A stretch of 64,000 nt of DNA from Pseudomonas fluvialis (GTDB lineage Bacteria > Pseudomonadota > Gammaproteobacteria > Pseudomonadales > Pseudomonadaceae). The position numbers and the translations under genes were made by a program. Position 1 is the first letter of the stretch; the number at the start of each line of letters is the position of its first letter. Below are positions 15,494 through 56,427 of this stretch, piece after piece. The stretch covers positions 1 through 64,000 of the forward strand of contig NZ_NMQV01000003.1 of the NCBI RefSeq assembly GCF_002234375.1. The letters are read 5' to 3'. The notes beneath the pieces are model-generated. The model was not told the origin of the DNA, ran no database searches, and saw only the letters and a list, made by a program, of their open reading frames with translations.

Positions 15494-16459
15494 ATGCAGA
15501 GCCTGTATCCGGAAATCAAACCCTATGCGCGTCATGCCCTGGCCGTGCAGGAGCCGCATATCCTGTATGTGGACGAGAGTGGTTCGGCCGATGGCCTGCC
15601 GGTACTGTTCGTGCATGGTGGTCCGGGCGCCGGTTGCGATGCCCTGAGCCGGCGCTTCTTCGATCCGGCGCTGTACCGTATCGTGACCTTTGACCAGCGT
15701 GGCTGTGGCCGTTCGACCCCGCATGCCTGCCTGGAGCACAACGACACCTGGGCACTGGTCGAGGACATGGAGCATATTCGCCAGCAACTGGGCATCGAGC
15801 GCTGGGTGTTGTTCGGCGGCTCCTGGGGTTCGACGCTCAGTCTGGCCTATGCGCAGCGCCACCCCGAGCGGGTGCAGGCGCTGATCCTGCGCGGTATCTT
15901 CCTCTGCCGACCAGAGGACTTCCGCTGGTTCTACCAGGAAGGTGCCAGCCGCCTGTTCCCCGATTACTGGCAGGATTACCTGGCGGTGCTTCCGCCCGCC
16001 GAGCGCGGCGACCTGATGCAGGCCTACTACAAGCGCCTGACCGGCAGCGATGAAATTGCCCAGATGCAGGCTGCCAAGGCCTGGTCCTGCTGGGAAGGGC
16101 GTACCGCCAGCCTGCGCCCCAATCCGCAACTGGTCGAACGCTTCCATGAGCGCGCCCTGTCGATTGCCCGCATCGAGTGTCACTACTTCGTCAACCAGGC
16201 CTTCCTCGAGCCGGACCAGCTGCTCCGCGACATGCCGCGCATTGCCCACCTGCCGGGGATCATCGTGCATGGCCGCTATGATGCGGTGTGCCCGCTAGAT
16301 AACGCCTGGGCGCTGCACCAGGCCTGGCCGGGCAGCGAGCTGCAGATCATCCGCGATGCCGGTCACGCGGCCTCCGAGCCGGGTATCGCCGATGCCCTGG
16401 TACGCGCGGCCGACAGCCTGGCGCGCCGCCTGCTCGACCTGCCGCTGGAGGATGCATGA
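15494..16459 (+). CDS. pip: Proline iminopeptidase
   Basis: The product is 321 residues. It is a cytosolic alpha/beta hydrolase of the S33 family that removes N-terminal proline from peptides. Seen motifs are the oxyanion region HGGPGAGC (41-48), DQRGCGRS (67-74), the nucleophile elbow GGSWGS with Ser110, the acid in GRYDAVCP and the histidine in [15 protein letters not shown] lies 6 bases before ATG 15494. A small stem-loop (CCTGGC/GCCAGG, 15460-15476) precedes it. Its last four bases overlap the dtd start, so the two are one operon, as in other pseudomonads. Confidence 0.95.
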
Positions 16460-50619: not shown

Positions 50620-53265
50620 TCAGCAGTCCAGCGGATTGGGCTTGTCCGGGTCGAGGCCGAAGCGGGCAATGGCTTCGGCCACCACCTTGGCGTCGATCTC
50701 GCCGCGGTCAGCCAGTGCTTCCAGCGCCGCCAGGGCCACCCAGTAGCGGTCCACCTCGAAGAAATGCCGCAGCTTGCGACGGCTGTCGCTGCGCCCGAAA
50801 CCATCGGTGCCGAGCACCTTGTATTCCTTGCTCGGCACCCACTGGCGCACTTGCTCGGCGAACAGCTTCATGTAGTCGGTGCTGGCCACCACCGGCCCCT
50901 TGCGGCCGTTCAGACATTGCTCCAGGTAACTCAGCTGCGGGCTTTGCAGCGGGTGCAGGCGGTTGTGGCGCTCCACGGCCAGGCCGTCGCGGCGCAGTTC
51001 GTTGAAGCTGGTAACGCTCCATACGTCGGCGGCCACGTTGAATTGCTCGCGAAGAATCTGCGCGGCCTCGCGTACTTCGCGGAGGATCGCACCGCAACCG
51101 AGCAGCTGTACGTGGTGGGCGGCGGCGCGCGTGTCCTCTTCGAGCAGGTACATGCCGCGGATGATGCCGTCCTCGACGCCCTCTGGCATGGCCGGCTGGG
51201 CATAGGCTTCGTTCATCACGGTGACGTAGTAGAAGATGCTGTCCTGCTCCTCGAGCATGCGCCGCGCGCCCTCGCGGATGATCACCGCCAGCTCGTAGCC
51301 GTAGGTCGGGTCATAGCTGTGGCAGTTAGGGATGGTGCTGGCGAGGATGTGGCTATGCCCGTCCTCGTGCTGCAAGCCCTCGCCGTTGAGCGTGGTGCGC
51401 CCGCTGGTGCCGCCGATCAGGAAACCCCGTGCGCGGCTGTCGCCGGCCGCCCAGGCGAGGTCGCCGATGCGCTGGAAGCCGAACATCGAATAGAACACAT
51501 AGAACGGCAACATCGGCTGGTTGTGCGTGGAGTAGGCGGTGCCGGCGGCAATCCAGCTGGACATGGCGCCCGCTTCGTTGATGCCTTCTTCGAGGATCTG
51601 CCCTTTCTTGTCTTCGCGGTAGAACATCACCTGGTCCTTGTCGACCGGCTCGTACAGCTGGCCGACCGAGGAGTAGATGCCCAGTTGGCGGAACAGCCCT
51701 TCCATGCCGAAGGTACGCGCTTCGTCCGGGACGATGGGCACAATGCGCGGACCGAGCTGCTTGTCCTTGAGCAACTGCGAGAGGATGCGCACGAAGGCCA
51801 TGGTGGTGGAGATTTCCCGCTCGCCGGTGCCGTCGAGGATGGCCTTGAGGGTGTCCAGTGGCGGTATCGGTACACGGAAGCTTTGCTGGCGGCGCTGCGG
51901 CACCACGCCGCCCAGCCGGGCGCGCCGTTCCTGCAGATAGCGCGCCTCGGCGCTGCCTTCGGCCGGGCGGTAGAACGGCAGCTTCTCCAGGTCGGCATCG
52001 CTGACCGGGATGTCGAAGCGGTCGCGGAATTTCTTCAGGCTGGCGATATCCACCTTCTTGACGTTATGCGCGGTGTTCTGCGCTTCGCCGGCGCCGATGC
52101 CGTAGCCCTTGATGGTCTTGGCCAGCACCACGGTCGGTTGACCCTTGTGGTTAACCGCCGCGTGGTAGGCGGCGTAGACCTTGTACGGATCGTGGCCGCC
52201 GCGGTTGAGGTTCCAGACTTCCTGGTCGGAGAGGTCCTTGACCATCTCCTTGAGTTCGGGGCTGTTGAAGAAGTGCTCGCGGACGAAGGCGCCGTCCTTG
52301 GCCTTGTAGTTCTGGTAGTCGCCATCGACCACCTCATCCATGCGGCGCTGCAGGATGCCGTCGTGGTCCTTGGCAAACAGCGGGTCCCAGAACCGTCCCC
52401 AGATGACTTTCTTGACGTTCCATTCGGCACCGCGGAACACCCCTTCCAGCTCCTGGATGATCTTGCCGTTGCCGCGTACCGGGCCGTCCAGACGCTGCAG
52501 GTTGCAGTTGATGACGAAGATCAGGTTGTCCAGTTTCTCGCGCCCGGCTAGGGCAATCGCGCCCAGCGATTCCGGTTCGTCGCACTCGCCGTCGCCCATG
52601 AAACACCAGACCTTCTGTTTGCCGGCCGGGATGAAGCCACGATGCTCCAGATACTTCATGAAACGCGCCTGGTAGATGGCCTGCAGGGGGCCGAGCCCCA
52701 TGGATACCGTGGGGAACTGCCAGAAATCGGGCATCAGCCAGGGATGCGGGTAGGAGGGGAGGCCCTGGCCGTCGGTTTCGCGGCGGAAGTTGTTGAGCTG
52801 CTCCTCGCTGATTCGCCCTTCCATGAAGGCGCGCGCGTAGACCCCGGGCGAGGCATGGCCCTGGAAGAAGATCAGGTCGCCGCCGTGTTCTTCGCAGGGC
52901 GCCTGGAAGAAGTAGTTGAAGCCCACGTCATACAGCGTAGCGCTGGAGGCGAAGGTGCCGATGTGCCCGCCCAGGTCAGGGTCCTGCTGGTTGGTGCGCA
53001 TCACCATGGCCAGGGCATTCCAGCGCACCAGCGAGCGAATCCGCCGTTCCATGAACAGGTCGCCTGGCATGCGTGCCTCCTGCGCCACCGGGATGCTGTT
53101 GCGGTAGGGCGTGGTGATCGCATAGGGCAGCTGGGTGCCGCTGCGCGTGGCCAGTTCGCCCATGCGGGTCAGCAGGTAGTGCGCGCGGCTTTCGCCTTCC
53201 TTGTCGACGACCGACTCAAGGGCGTCCAGCCATTCCTGGGTTTCGACGGGATCGAGGTCTTGCAT
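50620..53265 (-). CDS. aceE: Pyruvate dehydrogenase E1 component
   Basis: The product is 881 residues of the homodimeric E1 type. It decarboxylates pyruvate with thiamine diphosphate and acetylates the E2 lipoyl group. The thiamine diphosphate motif is GDGECDEPESLGAIALAGREK with downstream NCNLQ. HHVQLLG-type and YGYELAVIIREG are present in the second half. The start ATG 53265 has a GGAG nearby (CTGGAG on the minus strand). It is the first gene of aceE-aceF. Two dyads with HexR-like look lie upstream. Confidence 0.96.
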   Translation of the reverse strand: MQDLDPVETQEWLDALESVVDKEGESRAHYLLTRMGELATRSGTQLPYAITTPYRNSIPVAQEARMPGDLFMERRIRSLVRWNALAMVMRTNQQDPDLGGHIGTFASSATLYDVGFNYFFQAPCEEHGGDLIFFQGHASPGVYARAFMEGRISEEQLNNFRRETDGQGLPSYPHPWLMPDFWQFPTVSMGLGPLQAIYQARFMKYLEHRGFIPAGKQKVWCFMGDGECDEPESLGAIALAGREKLDNLIFVINCNLQRLDGPVRGNGKIIQELEGVFRGAEWNVKKVIWGRFWDPLFAKDHDGILQRRMDEVVDGDYQNYKAKDGAFVREHFFNSPELKEMVKDLSDQEVWNLNRGGHDPYKVYAAYHAAVNHKGQPTVVLAKTIKGYGIGAGEAQNTAHNVKKVDIASLKKFRDRFDIPVSDADLEKLPFYRPAEGSAEARYLQERRARLGGVVPQRRQQSFRVPIPPLDTLKAILDGTGEREISTTMAFVRILSQLLKDKQLGPRIVPIVPDEARTFGMEGLFRQLGIYSSVGQLYEPVDKDQVMFYREDKKGQILEEGINEAGAMSSWIAAGTAYSTHNQPMLPFYVFYSMFGFQRIGDLAWAAGDSRARGFLIGGTSGRTTLNGEGLQHEDGHSHILASTIPNCHSYDPTYGYELAVIIREGARRMLEEQDSIFYYVTVMNEAYAQPAMPEGVEDGIIRGMYLLEEDTRAAAHHVQLLGCGAILREVREAAQILREQFNVAADVWSVTSFNELRRDGLAVERHNRLHPLQSPQLSYLEQCLNGRKGPVVASTDYMKLFAEQVRQWVPSKEYKVLGTDGFGRSDSRRKLRHFFEVDRYWVALAALEALADRGEIDAKVVAEAIARFGLDPDKPNPLDC

Positions 53266-53372
53266 GGCTTGCTCCAGGGCTTAAAGGCACACAGAATCGG
53301 GCCTTAGTGACGTCGCCTGGCCTTGTGGGCGGGCAACTGGAATTCATCGGGATAGCGGTGCTACCAGAGGCT

Positions 53373-53387
53373 TGTAGTTTTACTACA
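53373..53387. promoter_or_regulatory. HexR-like operator, site 1
   Basis: TGTAGT and ACTACA form a perfect dyad with TTT between (53373-53387). It is 53 bases (centre to centre) from site 2 in the 234-base aceE-glnE intergenic region. The form is close to the reported HexR consensus of gamma-proteobacteria. HexR identity is inference. Confidence 0.65.
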
Positions 53388-53425
53388 TTGCGACGCCTTG
53401 ATCAGCCCCCCGCGGCACATCTTTT

Positions 53426-53440
53426 AGTAGTAAAACTACA
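53426..53440. promoter_or_regulatory. HexR-like operator, site 2
   Basis: AGTAGT and ACTACA with AAA between (53426-53440); five of six positions per arm are symmetric. It has the same half-site ACTACA as site 1. It lies 60 bases before the glnE ATG and about 160 before the aceE ATG. Confidence 0.6.
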
Positions 53441-53499
53441 ATTTTCTGTCTGCCCGCTTGACAGGCCCGACAGAACCGCCTGAGCCAAAAGGATAGACC

Positions 53500-56427
53500 A
53501 TGAGCTTGCCGTCACTGCTGGACCTGTCTCCCGCCCTGCATGGGCTGGCCGAACGCGCCGAGCCGAGCGTGTTGCAGGCGCTGGGGGGGGCGCAGGCGCT
53601 GGCCGACTGGCCGGCGCAGCGTCGTGAACAGTTGCCCCGGCTGCTGGCCTGCAGCGATTTCGTACACCAGCAGATCCTCCGCGCTCCGGCAGACTTTCTG
53701 GCACTGGCTGCCAGTGGCGAGCTGGAGCGCCCGCTGGGGCCTGGGGAGTTGCGTGAGGCGTTGCAGCAGGCCCTGCAGGACTGTGCCGACGAGGACACCC
53801 TGGCCCGTCAGTTGCGGCGCTTTCGCAACCGTCAGCAGCTGCGCATCATCTGGCGTGACATCAGCCGCCAGGCCAGTCTGCAGCAGACCTGCCTGGAGCT
53901 GTCGGCACTGGCCGACGCCTGCGTCGACCAGGCGTATGCCTGGCTGTACCGCCAGCATTGTGCGCAGTTCGGCACGCCCATCGGGCGGCGCTCCGGCGAG
54001 CCGCAGCATCTGGTGATCCTCGGGATGGGCAAGCTGGGTGCCTTCGAGCTCAACCTGTCTTCGGATATCGACCTGATCTTCGGCTATCCCGAAGGCGGGG
54101 AAACCCAGGGCGCACGGCGTGCACAGGACAACCAGGAATTCTTTACCCGCCTGGGGCAGAAGCTCATCAAGGCGCTGGATGCGATTACCGTGGATGGCTT
54201 CGTGTTTCGCGTCGACATGCGCTTGCGCCCCTATGGCGACAGTGGTGCCCTGGTGCTTAGCTTCAATGCCCTGGAGCAGTACTACCAGGACCAGGGGCGT
54301 GATTGGGAACGCTACGCGATGATCAAGGCACGGGTCATCGGCGGCGACCAGCAGGCCGGTCGCCAGTTGCTGGAGATGCTGCGGCCGTTCGTCTACCGCC
54401 GTTACCTGGATTTTTCTGCCATCGAGGCGCTACGCGCCATGAAGCAGCTGATCCAGCAGGAAGTGCGCCGCAAGGGTATGAGCGAGAACATCAAGTTGGG
54501 GGCGGGAGGCATTCGGGAGGTCGAGTTTATTGCCCAGGCTTTCCAGCTTATCCATGGTGGCCGTGACCTCAGCCTGCAGCAGCGCTCGTTGCTCAAGGTG
54601 CTGGATACCCTGGACGGGCAAGGTTACCTGCCTGGCGAGGTGGTCAACGAACTGCGCGAGGGCTATCACTTCCTGCGTTACACCGAACATGCTCTGCAGG
54701 GCATCGCCGACCGGCAGACGCAGATGCTTCCCGAGGATCCCCAGGAACAGGCGCGGGTGGCGCAGATCATGGGTTTTGCCGACTGGGCGGCCTTTCATGC
54801 TGAGCTGATGCGCTGGCGGGCACGGGTCGATCACCATTTTCGCCGGGTCATTGCCGACCCCGACGAGGACGTCGATGCCGAGCAGGAAACGCCCGGCGGC
54901 GAGTGGTTGCCGCTGTGGAGCGAAGCGCTGGACAGCGCTGCCGCCGAGGAGCAACTGGCCGAGGCGGGCTTGCAGAATCCGGCACAGGCCTACAAACGCC
55001 TGCTCGATCTGCGTCATGGCGGCCAGGTGCGTGCCATGCAGCGCCTGGGGCGCGAGCGTCTGGATGCCTTCATGCCGCGCCTGTTGGCGCAAGCAGTGAG
55101 CCAGCCTGATCCTGACCTGGTACTGGAGCGGGTCATGCCGCTGGTGGAAAAGGTGGCACGGCGCTCGGCCTATCTGGTGTTGCTCAGCGAAAACCCGGGT
55201 GCCCTGCAGCGCCTGCTCAGCCTGTGTGCCGCCAGTCCGTGGATCGCCGAGCAGATCGCGCGTTTCCCACTGCTGCTCGACGAGCTGCTCAACGAGGGAC
55301 GGCTATTCAGCCCGCCGCAAGGCGAAGAGCTGGTGGCCGAGCTGCGCGAACGGCTGATGCGCATTCCCGAAGATGATCTGGAACAGCAGATGGAGGCCTT
55401 GCGCCACTTCAAGCTGGCCCACCGTCTGCGCGTGGCGGCGTCGGAGATTGCCGGCAGCCTGCCGCTGATGAAAGTCTCCGACTACCTCACCTGGCTGGCC
55501 GAGGCGATTCTCCAGCAGGTGCTGCAGCTGGCCTGGCGGCAACTGACCAGCAAGCATGGCGTGCCGCGGCGCAGCGACGGCAGCCTGTGCGATGGCGACT
55601 TCATCATCGTCGGCTATGGCAAGGTCGGCGGCATCGAGTTGGGGCATGGCTCCGACCTCGATCTGGTGTTTATCCATGATGCCGACCCGCAGGCGGAAAC
55701 CGACGGCGCCAAGCCGCTGGATGGTGCGCAGTTCTTTGCCCGCATGGGCCAGCGCATCATTCACATGCTCAATACCCTGACCACCTCCGGGCCGCTCTAT
55801 GAGGTGGATATGCGTCTGCGTCCCTCCGGCGAGTCCGGCCTGCTGGTCAGCTCGCTGAGCGCCTTCGCCCGCTACCAGCAGCAGGAAGCCTGGACCTGGG
55901 AGCACCAGGCCCTGGTGCGTGCCCGTGTGCTGGTGGGCTGTCCGCGGGTCGCCGCCGGTTTTGCGGCGATACGCGCCGAGGTATTGGGTCGGGCGCGTGA
56001 CCTTGATCAGCTGCGCCGCGAAGTCAGCGAAATGCGCGGCAAGATGCGCGACAACCTGGGGACGCGTGCGACCCAGGCCGGCCTCGGCGAGCTGGCCGAA
56101 GACCCGGCGCAGCGCTTCAACCTCAAGCAGGACGCCGGCGGTATCGTCGATATCGAATTTATGGTGCAATACGCGGCCCTGGCCTGGTCCCACGAACACC
56201 CGCAGCTGCTGCGTTACACCGACAACATCCGCATTCTGGATGGCTTGCGCGAGGCGGCGTTGCTCAGCGCCGAGGACGTTACGGCGCTGCAGGAAATCTA
56301 CAAGGCCTACCGCGCCACCGCGCATCGCCTGGCCCTGCAGAAACAGGCCGGCGAGGTGAGTGCCGACCAGCTGCTTGCCGAGCGCCGCAAGGTGCGGCAC
56401 ATCTGGCAGGCGCTGGGGCTGAACTGA
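53500..56427 (+). CDS. glnE: Glutamine synthetase adenylyltransferase/adenylyl-removing enzyme
   Basis: The product is 975 residues. It carries two nucleotidyltransferase domains: the N-terminal adenylyl-removing half (LSSDIDLIFGYPEG) and the C-terminal adenylating half (GHGSDLDLVFIHD), separated by a helical regulatory region. The ends of each domain (GGIREVEFIAQ and AGGIVDIEFMVQY) are conserved. It sets glutamine synthetase activity in answer to PII signals. AAAGGA lies before ATG 53500. It is divergent from aceE; a weak stem-loop follows at 56436-56452. Confidence 0.95.
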   Translation: MSLPSLLDLSPALHGLAERAEPSVLQALGGAQALADWPAQRREQLPRLLACSDFVHQQILRAPADFLALAASGELERPLGPGELREALQQALQDCADEDTLARQLRRFRNRQQLRIIWRDISRQASLQQTCLELSALADACVDQAYAWLYRQHCAQFGTPIGRRSGEPQHLVILGMGKLGAFELNLSSDIDLIFGYPEGGETQGARRAQDNQEFFTRLGQKLIKALDAITVDGFVFRVDMRLRPYGDSGALVLSFNALEQYYQDQGRDWERYAMIKARVIGGDQQAGRQLLEMLRPFVYRRYLDFSAIEALRAMKQLIQQEVRRKGMSENIKLGAGGIREVEFIAQAFQLIHGGRDLSLQQRSLLKVLDTLDGQGYLPGEVVNELREGYHFLRYTEHALQGIADRQTQMLPEDPQEQARVAQIMGFADWAAFHAELMRWRARVDHHFRRVIADPDEDVDAEQETPGGEWLPLWSEALDSAAAEEQLAEAGLQNPAQAYKRLLDLRHGGQVRAMQRLGRERLDAFMPRLLAQAVSQPDPDLVLERVMPLVEKVARRSAYLVLLSENPGALQRLLSLCAASPWIAEQIARFPLLLDELLNEGRLFSPPQGEELVAELRERLMRIPEDDLEQQMEALRHFKLAHRLRVAASEIAGSLPLMKVSDYLTWLAEAILQQVLQLAWRQLTSKHGVPRRSDGSLCDGDFIIVGYGKVGGIELGHGSDLDLVFIHDADPQAETDGAKPLDGAQFFARMGQRIIHMLNTLTTSGPLYEVDMRLRPSGESGLLVSSLSAFARYQQQEAWTWEHQALVRARVLVGCPRVAAGFAAIRAEVLGRARDLDQLRREVSEMRGKMRDNLGTRATQAGLGELAEDPAQRFNLKQDAGGIVDIEFMVQYAALAWSHEHPQLLRYTDNIRILDGLREAALLSAEDVTALQEIYKAYRATAHRLALQKQAGEVSADQLLAERRKVRHIWQALGLN

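Follow-up and report, generated by a model that had tools for sequence, protein, structure and literature searches.

The paired 15-bp sites upstream of aceE in Pseudomonas fluvialis are almost certainly a conserved double operator for RccR before aceEF, which RccR leaves when KDPG is present. RccR is a KDPG-sensing repressor of the RpiR family and a relative of HexR (PMC5489143). Observed here were the two sites and how well they are conserved, an rccR gene that keeps the KDPG residues, edd and eda, and operators before further published targets. Binding, the KDPG response, and repression come from published work on P. fluorescens and P. aeruginosa (PMC5489143, PMC10810197), and we infer by analogy that the system works in the same way in P. 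fluvialis. When KDPG is absent, for example during growth on acetate, RccR dimers would occupy both 15-bp sites, probably cooperatively and with the DNA bent between them, and the aceE promoter would be shut. Sugars would raise KDPG, RccR would leave the aceE sites, and pyruvate dehydrogenase would be made. RccR would then hold more tightly to long-spacer sites before aceA and glcB.

The two sites lie in the sole gap between the divergent genes aceE and glnE. Within the 64,000-nucleotide stretch of DNA that was analyzed (the window), the sequence reads TGTAGTTTTACTACA at 53373-53387 (centre 53380) and AGTAGTAAAACTACA at 53426-53440 (centre 53433). The centres are 53 bp apart, about five helical turns, and the outer span is 68 bp. 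These positions and this spacing bear out the first-pass annotation, which also described the first site as perfectly symmetric; both of its half-sites (TGTAGT and ACTACA) are perfect, while the second site has a single outer-base mismatch to TGTAGT-N3-ACTACA. On the aceE strand the distal site reads TGTAGTTTTACTACT and the aceE-proximal site TGTAGTAAAACTACA. The gap is 234 bp long (53266-53499) and separates the aceE ATG (53265, minus strand) from the glnE ATG (53500). The only other site in the window with two mismatches or fewer is at 16017 (two mismatches). A scan of 53200-53560 against the sigma-70 consensus gave no promoter-like match. The pair ends 59 bp before the glnE ATG and no other gap is available, which is consistent with the earlier proposal that the operators also set glnE, so that KDPG would reach nitrogen control. 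This proposal is very improbable, however. Where RccR peaks of P. fluorescens SBW25 lay between divergent genes, just one of the two genes responded in the rccR mutant (PMC5489143), and glnE is not retained as a target.

Features of the aceE-glnE region and of the icd operator pair. Positions are those of the window unless a locus is named.
Feature	Position	Strand	Evidence
aceE-proximal 15-bp RccR-type operator, TGTAGTAAAACTACA	53373..53387	.	sequence; identical in 36/36 congeners; letters equal a published RccR site
distal 15-bp RccR-type operator, TGTAGTTTTACTACT	53426..53440	.	<=1 mismatch in 34/36 congeners; letters equal a published RccR site
38-bp inter-operator DNA	53388..53425	.	length kept (offset 52 or 53 bp), letters not
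aceE, pyruvate dehydrogenase E1; regulated gene according to published work	50620..53265	-	NCBIfam TIGR00759, 1488.8 bits
aceF-like ORF 3' of aceE, 553 aa	48869..50530	-	two lipoyl-type N-terminal stretches; named by eye from the translation
glnE, divergent neighbour; RccR regulation not supported	53500..56427	+	NCBIfam NF008292, 1307.8 bits
second RccR-type pair, before icd	L002:5274-5391 (G000:C15:18773-18890)		distal site composite; proximal site within a conserved promoter-like module

Judged by sequence, the regulator of the twin sites is RccR, not HexR, and the name HexR given to it earlier should be replaced. The genome (3,291,143 bases in 69 contigs, an assembly listed as 100% complete) has one gene with an RpiR HTH_6 domain. 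It encodes 288 amino acids and is divergent from a zwf-type gene. Its product is 88.9-90.6% identical to those of the RccR-type genes of four congeners and 41.6-43.9% identical to those of three HexR-type genes. It also matches PDB entries 8k3b_A (534.8 bits) and 8ju9_A (527.1 bits) over nearly the full length; these are listed as an RpiR-family or probable regulator, and we infer that they are P. aeruginosa RccR. Residues R152, K270, and R277 are kept in the P. fluvialis protein, and alanine at any of these positions abolishes KDPG sensing by RccR (PMC10810197). The TGTAGT/ACTACA 15-mer is present at all four of the congener RccR-type loci, and TTGT-N7-ACAA is found between hexR and zwf at two of the three HexR-type loci. 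The HTH_6 search, which returned the single RccR-type gene, found no HexR-type gene in the genome. The HexR motif of Pseudomonas, TTGT-N7-8-ACAA (PMC5489143), is absent from the window, from the region between rccR and zwf, and from the stretch with edd, eda, and pgl; gap-1 was not located.

The first-pass annotation had compared the form of the sites with the HexR consensus, and HexR itself might be supposed to bind them. HexR belongs to the same family and has the same ligand as RccR (PMC5489143), and NCBIfam model NF008451 labels the RccR-type protein (L001:4729-5595) HexR with 305.2 bits, above the cut-off of 296. Because this model scores above its cut-off on an RccR-type protein, the two regulators may be mistaken for each other in automatic annotation. 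Against HexR, its motif is missing from the window, the sole RpiR-family gene is of the RccR type, and the letters of the sites are those of RccR; a second RpiR gene would have to lie outside an assembly listed as complete. HexR is therefore the wrong protein, and its binding here is very improbable. The broader claim that a KDPG-sensing repressor acts on pyruvate dehydrogenase stands, as it has been published for RccR at the same letters (PMC5489143). This small-genome Pseudomonas thus lacks HexR but retains the half of the KDPG circuit that belongs to RccR.

The conservation of the region is concentrated in the two sites, and it was measured in 36 congeners (30 aceE loci, with the P. fluvialis genome included, and six loci fetched separately). 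The aceE-proximal site is identical in every one of them. The distal site has one mismatch in 34 genomes, two in one, and three in one, so that the sites are retained upstream of aceE in relatives, a point on which the earlier proposal had been made to depend. Thirty-two congeners have the sites at an offset of 52 bp, and four, P. fluvialis among them, at 53 bp. Averaged over alignment columns, conservation reaches 0.989 within the two sites but only 0.722 in the DNA that separates them and 0.785 elsewhere in the gap. Four genomes of other families were read out of 21. In one of them (G036) two perfect sites stand at a distance of 51 bp, and the other three have no aceE site within two mismatches in 330 bp, so outside the family the pair is not a general feature. 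Perfect matches to TGTAGT-N3-ACTACA are rare. Three were seen in the 3.29-Mb genome with about 0.03 expected at the window's 65.1% G+C, and they lie in the aceE-glnE gap, beside the RpiR-family gene, and before icd. With two mismatches the pattern is noise (40 genome sites and 131 in the reversed control), and only the strongest sites were therefore used. Each dyad could, by eye, form a short A+T-rich stem, but a hairpin, a terminator, or chance can be dismissed almost entirely, given a probability of about 5e-9 that one gap would hold two sites of no more than one mismatch each (independent bases, computed post hoc), the near-complete conservation of the sites against weak flanks, the failure of a scan of the aceE-glnE region to find a terminator-like site, and the footprints published at the same letters (PMC5489143).

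RccR-type operators are found before other known RccR targets in the genome. The published targets include aceA, glcB, pckA, pntAA, gap, rccR, and PFLU2154 (PMC5489143), and operators were found before rccR, aceA, glcB, pckA, and, with one mismatch, pntAA; gap was not located in the genome. The published long RccR site of 28 bp includes flanking bases, so its core gap is N14. Perfect N14 sites precede pckA (C12:133560) and glcB (C23:186209). The rccR promoter has a perfect 26-bp N14 site (C14:102627) that encloses the 15-mer, as described for the SBW25 rccR promoter, where the 15-mer is inside a longer site (PMC5489143). The long-spacer site of aceA has an N15 gap (C15:10831), and the one-mismatch site of pntAA is at C9:84875. 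A search for N14 sites with up to two mismatches gave 42 sites and 43 in the reversed control, so that one-mismatch N14 sites prove nothing alone; the sites before pntAA and aceA are credited because both genes are published targets.

Sites were also found at genes outside this list. A perfect 26-bp RccR-type site (C14:71738-71763, L071:2739-2764) precedes a 130-aa SCP2-like ORF (Pfam 22.2 bits, cut-off 21.3) that adjoins an HU-like ORF. The SCP2-like ORF is possibly a target of RccR, like the uncharacterized PFLU2154. At the start of a ppsA ORF, a gluconeogenic gene with PEP synthase domains, there is a one-mismatch N14 site (C36:15947-15972, L073:2948-2973), which is weak evidence. Further 15-bp sites occur at C45:250944 and C56:70049 (one mismatch) and at C6:149031 (two mismatches), a one-mismatch N14 site is at C12:112603, and a site at C22:18960 falls within a long ORF. 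The genes edd and eda (scored with NCBIfam) and a pgl-like ORF are clustered in the genome, and KDPG can therefore be made. The stretch read around this cluster (L009:6005-9215) contains neither hexR nor zwf, and the cluster has no recognizable RccR or HexR site. The first-pass annotation had suggested checking whether the motif occurs close to zwf, edd, gap, and eda. A site is present between rccR and the divergent zwf-type gene, but none with two mismatches or fewer occurs across the 12.5 kb that hold edd, eda, and pgl.

A second pair of RccR-type sites is found directly before icd, the gene for NADP-isocitrate dehydrogenase. It is probable that in part of the Pseudomonadaceae, P. fluvialis included, RccR also governs icd through this pair, which would consist of a composite distal site (a 15-mer within 26 or 27 bp) and a proximal site that fills the spacer of a conserved promoter-like element, nine or ten helical turns apart according to the clade. 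One KDPG sensor would then set both branches at isocitrate in opposite directions. In P. fluvialis the sites are TGTAGTTTGACTACA and TGTAGAAAAACTACA, with centres 92 bp apart and icd identified by NCBIfam. The 49 loci with the pair represent 47 genomes, since L041 equals L120 and L042 equals L127. The centre spacing in these genomes is 92 (one genome), 93 (four), 94 (25), 95 (one), 96 (one), 103 (eight), or 104 (seven), and it is 105 in one further genome (G261). The scan accepted any spacing from 77 to 107, so it did not itself create the two groups, which differ by about one helical turn; no p-value is given because related genomes are not independent. A third TGTAG precedes the distal site in all 49 loci, 11 bases before it in 38 and 12 in 11, and the distal site is therefore composite and resembles the operator of rccR. 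The proximal site is surrounded by GCGTGAC and a far-end AANAAT, both of which are invariant in 43 distinct sequences. GTGACT may be a -35 element and AANAAT a -10 element, with the operator lying in the 17 bp that separate them, although both are weak matches to consensus. The promoter spacer is a usual place for the operator of a simple repressor. GCGTGAC occurs in three of 26 congener loci without the pair, in another context.

The icd pair has a patchy distribution. A match to icd was found in 31 of the 36 congeners, and four of these 31 have the pair; the remaining 27 have no 15-bp site within two mismatches in 700 bp upstream of icd. A scan of genome contigs for the exact pair, independent of genes, found 54 stretches, of which 45 are directly before icd (60-123 bp away), in Pseudomonas, Halopseudomonas, and a few metagenome-assembled relatives. 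The adjacent icd genes are 88.7-96.2% identical to that of P. fluvialis, the closest being P. alcaligenes loci (up to 96.2%) and P. subflava (95.5%). The nine stretches with no icd match belong to Hoylesella (seven), Clostridium (one), and Granulosicoccaceae (one). Of 398 genomes sampled from the family, 48 (in three of 19 genera) have the exact pair and 67 (in six genera) the proximal promoter module with up to three mismatches; neither was found in the reversed controls. The module is present in 34 of the 37 genomes of genus g26, as counted from the listing, while most sampled genomes of the genus of P. fluvialis have neither the pair nor the module.

Many of the genomes with the icd pair have no HexR-type gene. 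With HTH_6 above 100 bits as the criterion, which was checked on three proteins only, the gene is absent from 35 of the 47 genomes (G000 and G027 included). Among the 45 named genomes, 12 have it and 33 do not, and one of the 33, a metagenome assembly, has no HTH_6 match at all. One of the 32 congeners without the icd pair lacks the gene; five of these 32 gave no icd match. These counts are not taken to tie the icd pair to HexR loss, because some genomes have both the gene and the pair, G014 has neither, and kinship confounds the comparison.

The control of icd by RccR has been hinted at in print. A ChIP-seq paper of 2026 hints at icd for PA5438 in P. aeruginosa (PMC13086498), and PA5438 is rccR (PMC10810197). 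The parts consulted of PMC5489143, PMC9755347, and PMC13086498 do not contain the icd sites, their mechanism, or their distribution. The main text of PMC10810197 does not mention icd, and this counts against strong targeting of icd in P. aeruginosa in the conditions of that study. Overall icd is a strong candidate target of RccR in lineages other than that of the strain used to map the regulon.

The isocitrate branch point is usually explained by phosphorylation of isocitrate dehydrogenase. With RccR on the icd pair, icd would be off and aceA on when KDPG is absent, and the reverse would hold when it is present, so that the branch would be set by transcription and not only by enzyme phosphorylation. 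If this is true, the branch point gains a transcriptional switch for which a single protein and a single metabolite suffice as a test, and the icd pair is the part of this analysis that deserves a bench test.

The twin aceE sites are confirmed and real, and they are already known, because both 15-mers are printed as RccR sites (PMC5489143). The HexR operator of Pseudomonas is also a dyad of an RpiR-family protein released by KDPG, but its half-site and spacing differ from those of the twin sites (PMC5489143). P. aeruginosa RccR (PA5438) binds the aceE promoter and is released by KDPG, and aceE, aceF, aceA, and glcB are raised in an rccR mutant (PMC10810197). It has the same three KDPG residues as the P. 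fluvialis protein; the text compared gives no promoter letters. The nearest likeness is the aceE double operator of P. fluorescens SBW25, where two 15-bp RccR sites have a double ChIP-seq peak, SPR binding, and a pair of DNase I footprints flanking a stretch with many hypersensitive bands, and where KDPG lowers the affinity of RccR (PMC5489143). For SBW25, binding that seems cooperative and indications that the DNA bends between the sites have also been published (PMC5489143), in agreement with the looping or cooperative binding suggested by the first-pass annotation, and both may apply by analogy to P. fluvialis. RccR sites occur in almost all Pseudomonas species searched (PMC5489143). The two systems differ in species, in the absence of hexR from the P. 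fluvialis genome, and in the printed distance, as the SBW25 sites are given as "68 bp apart" (PMC5489143) and those of P. fluvialis cover 68 bp from end to end, with an offset of 53 bp. The printed value is probably the outer span, because the 36 congeners have an offset of 52 or 53 bp. The 15-mers, their order, the gene, and the regulator family are the same, and the aceE result confirms the published circuit in another species.
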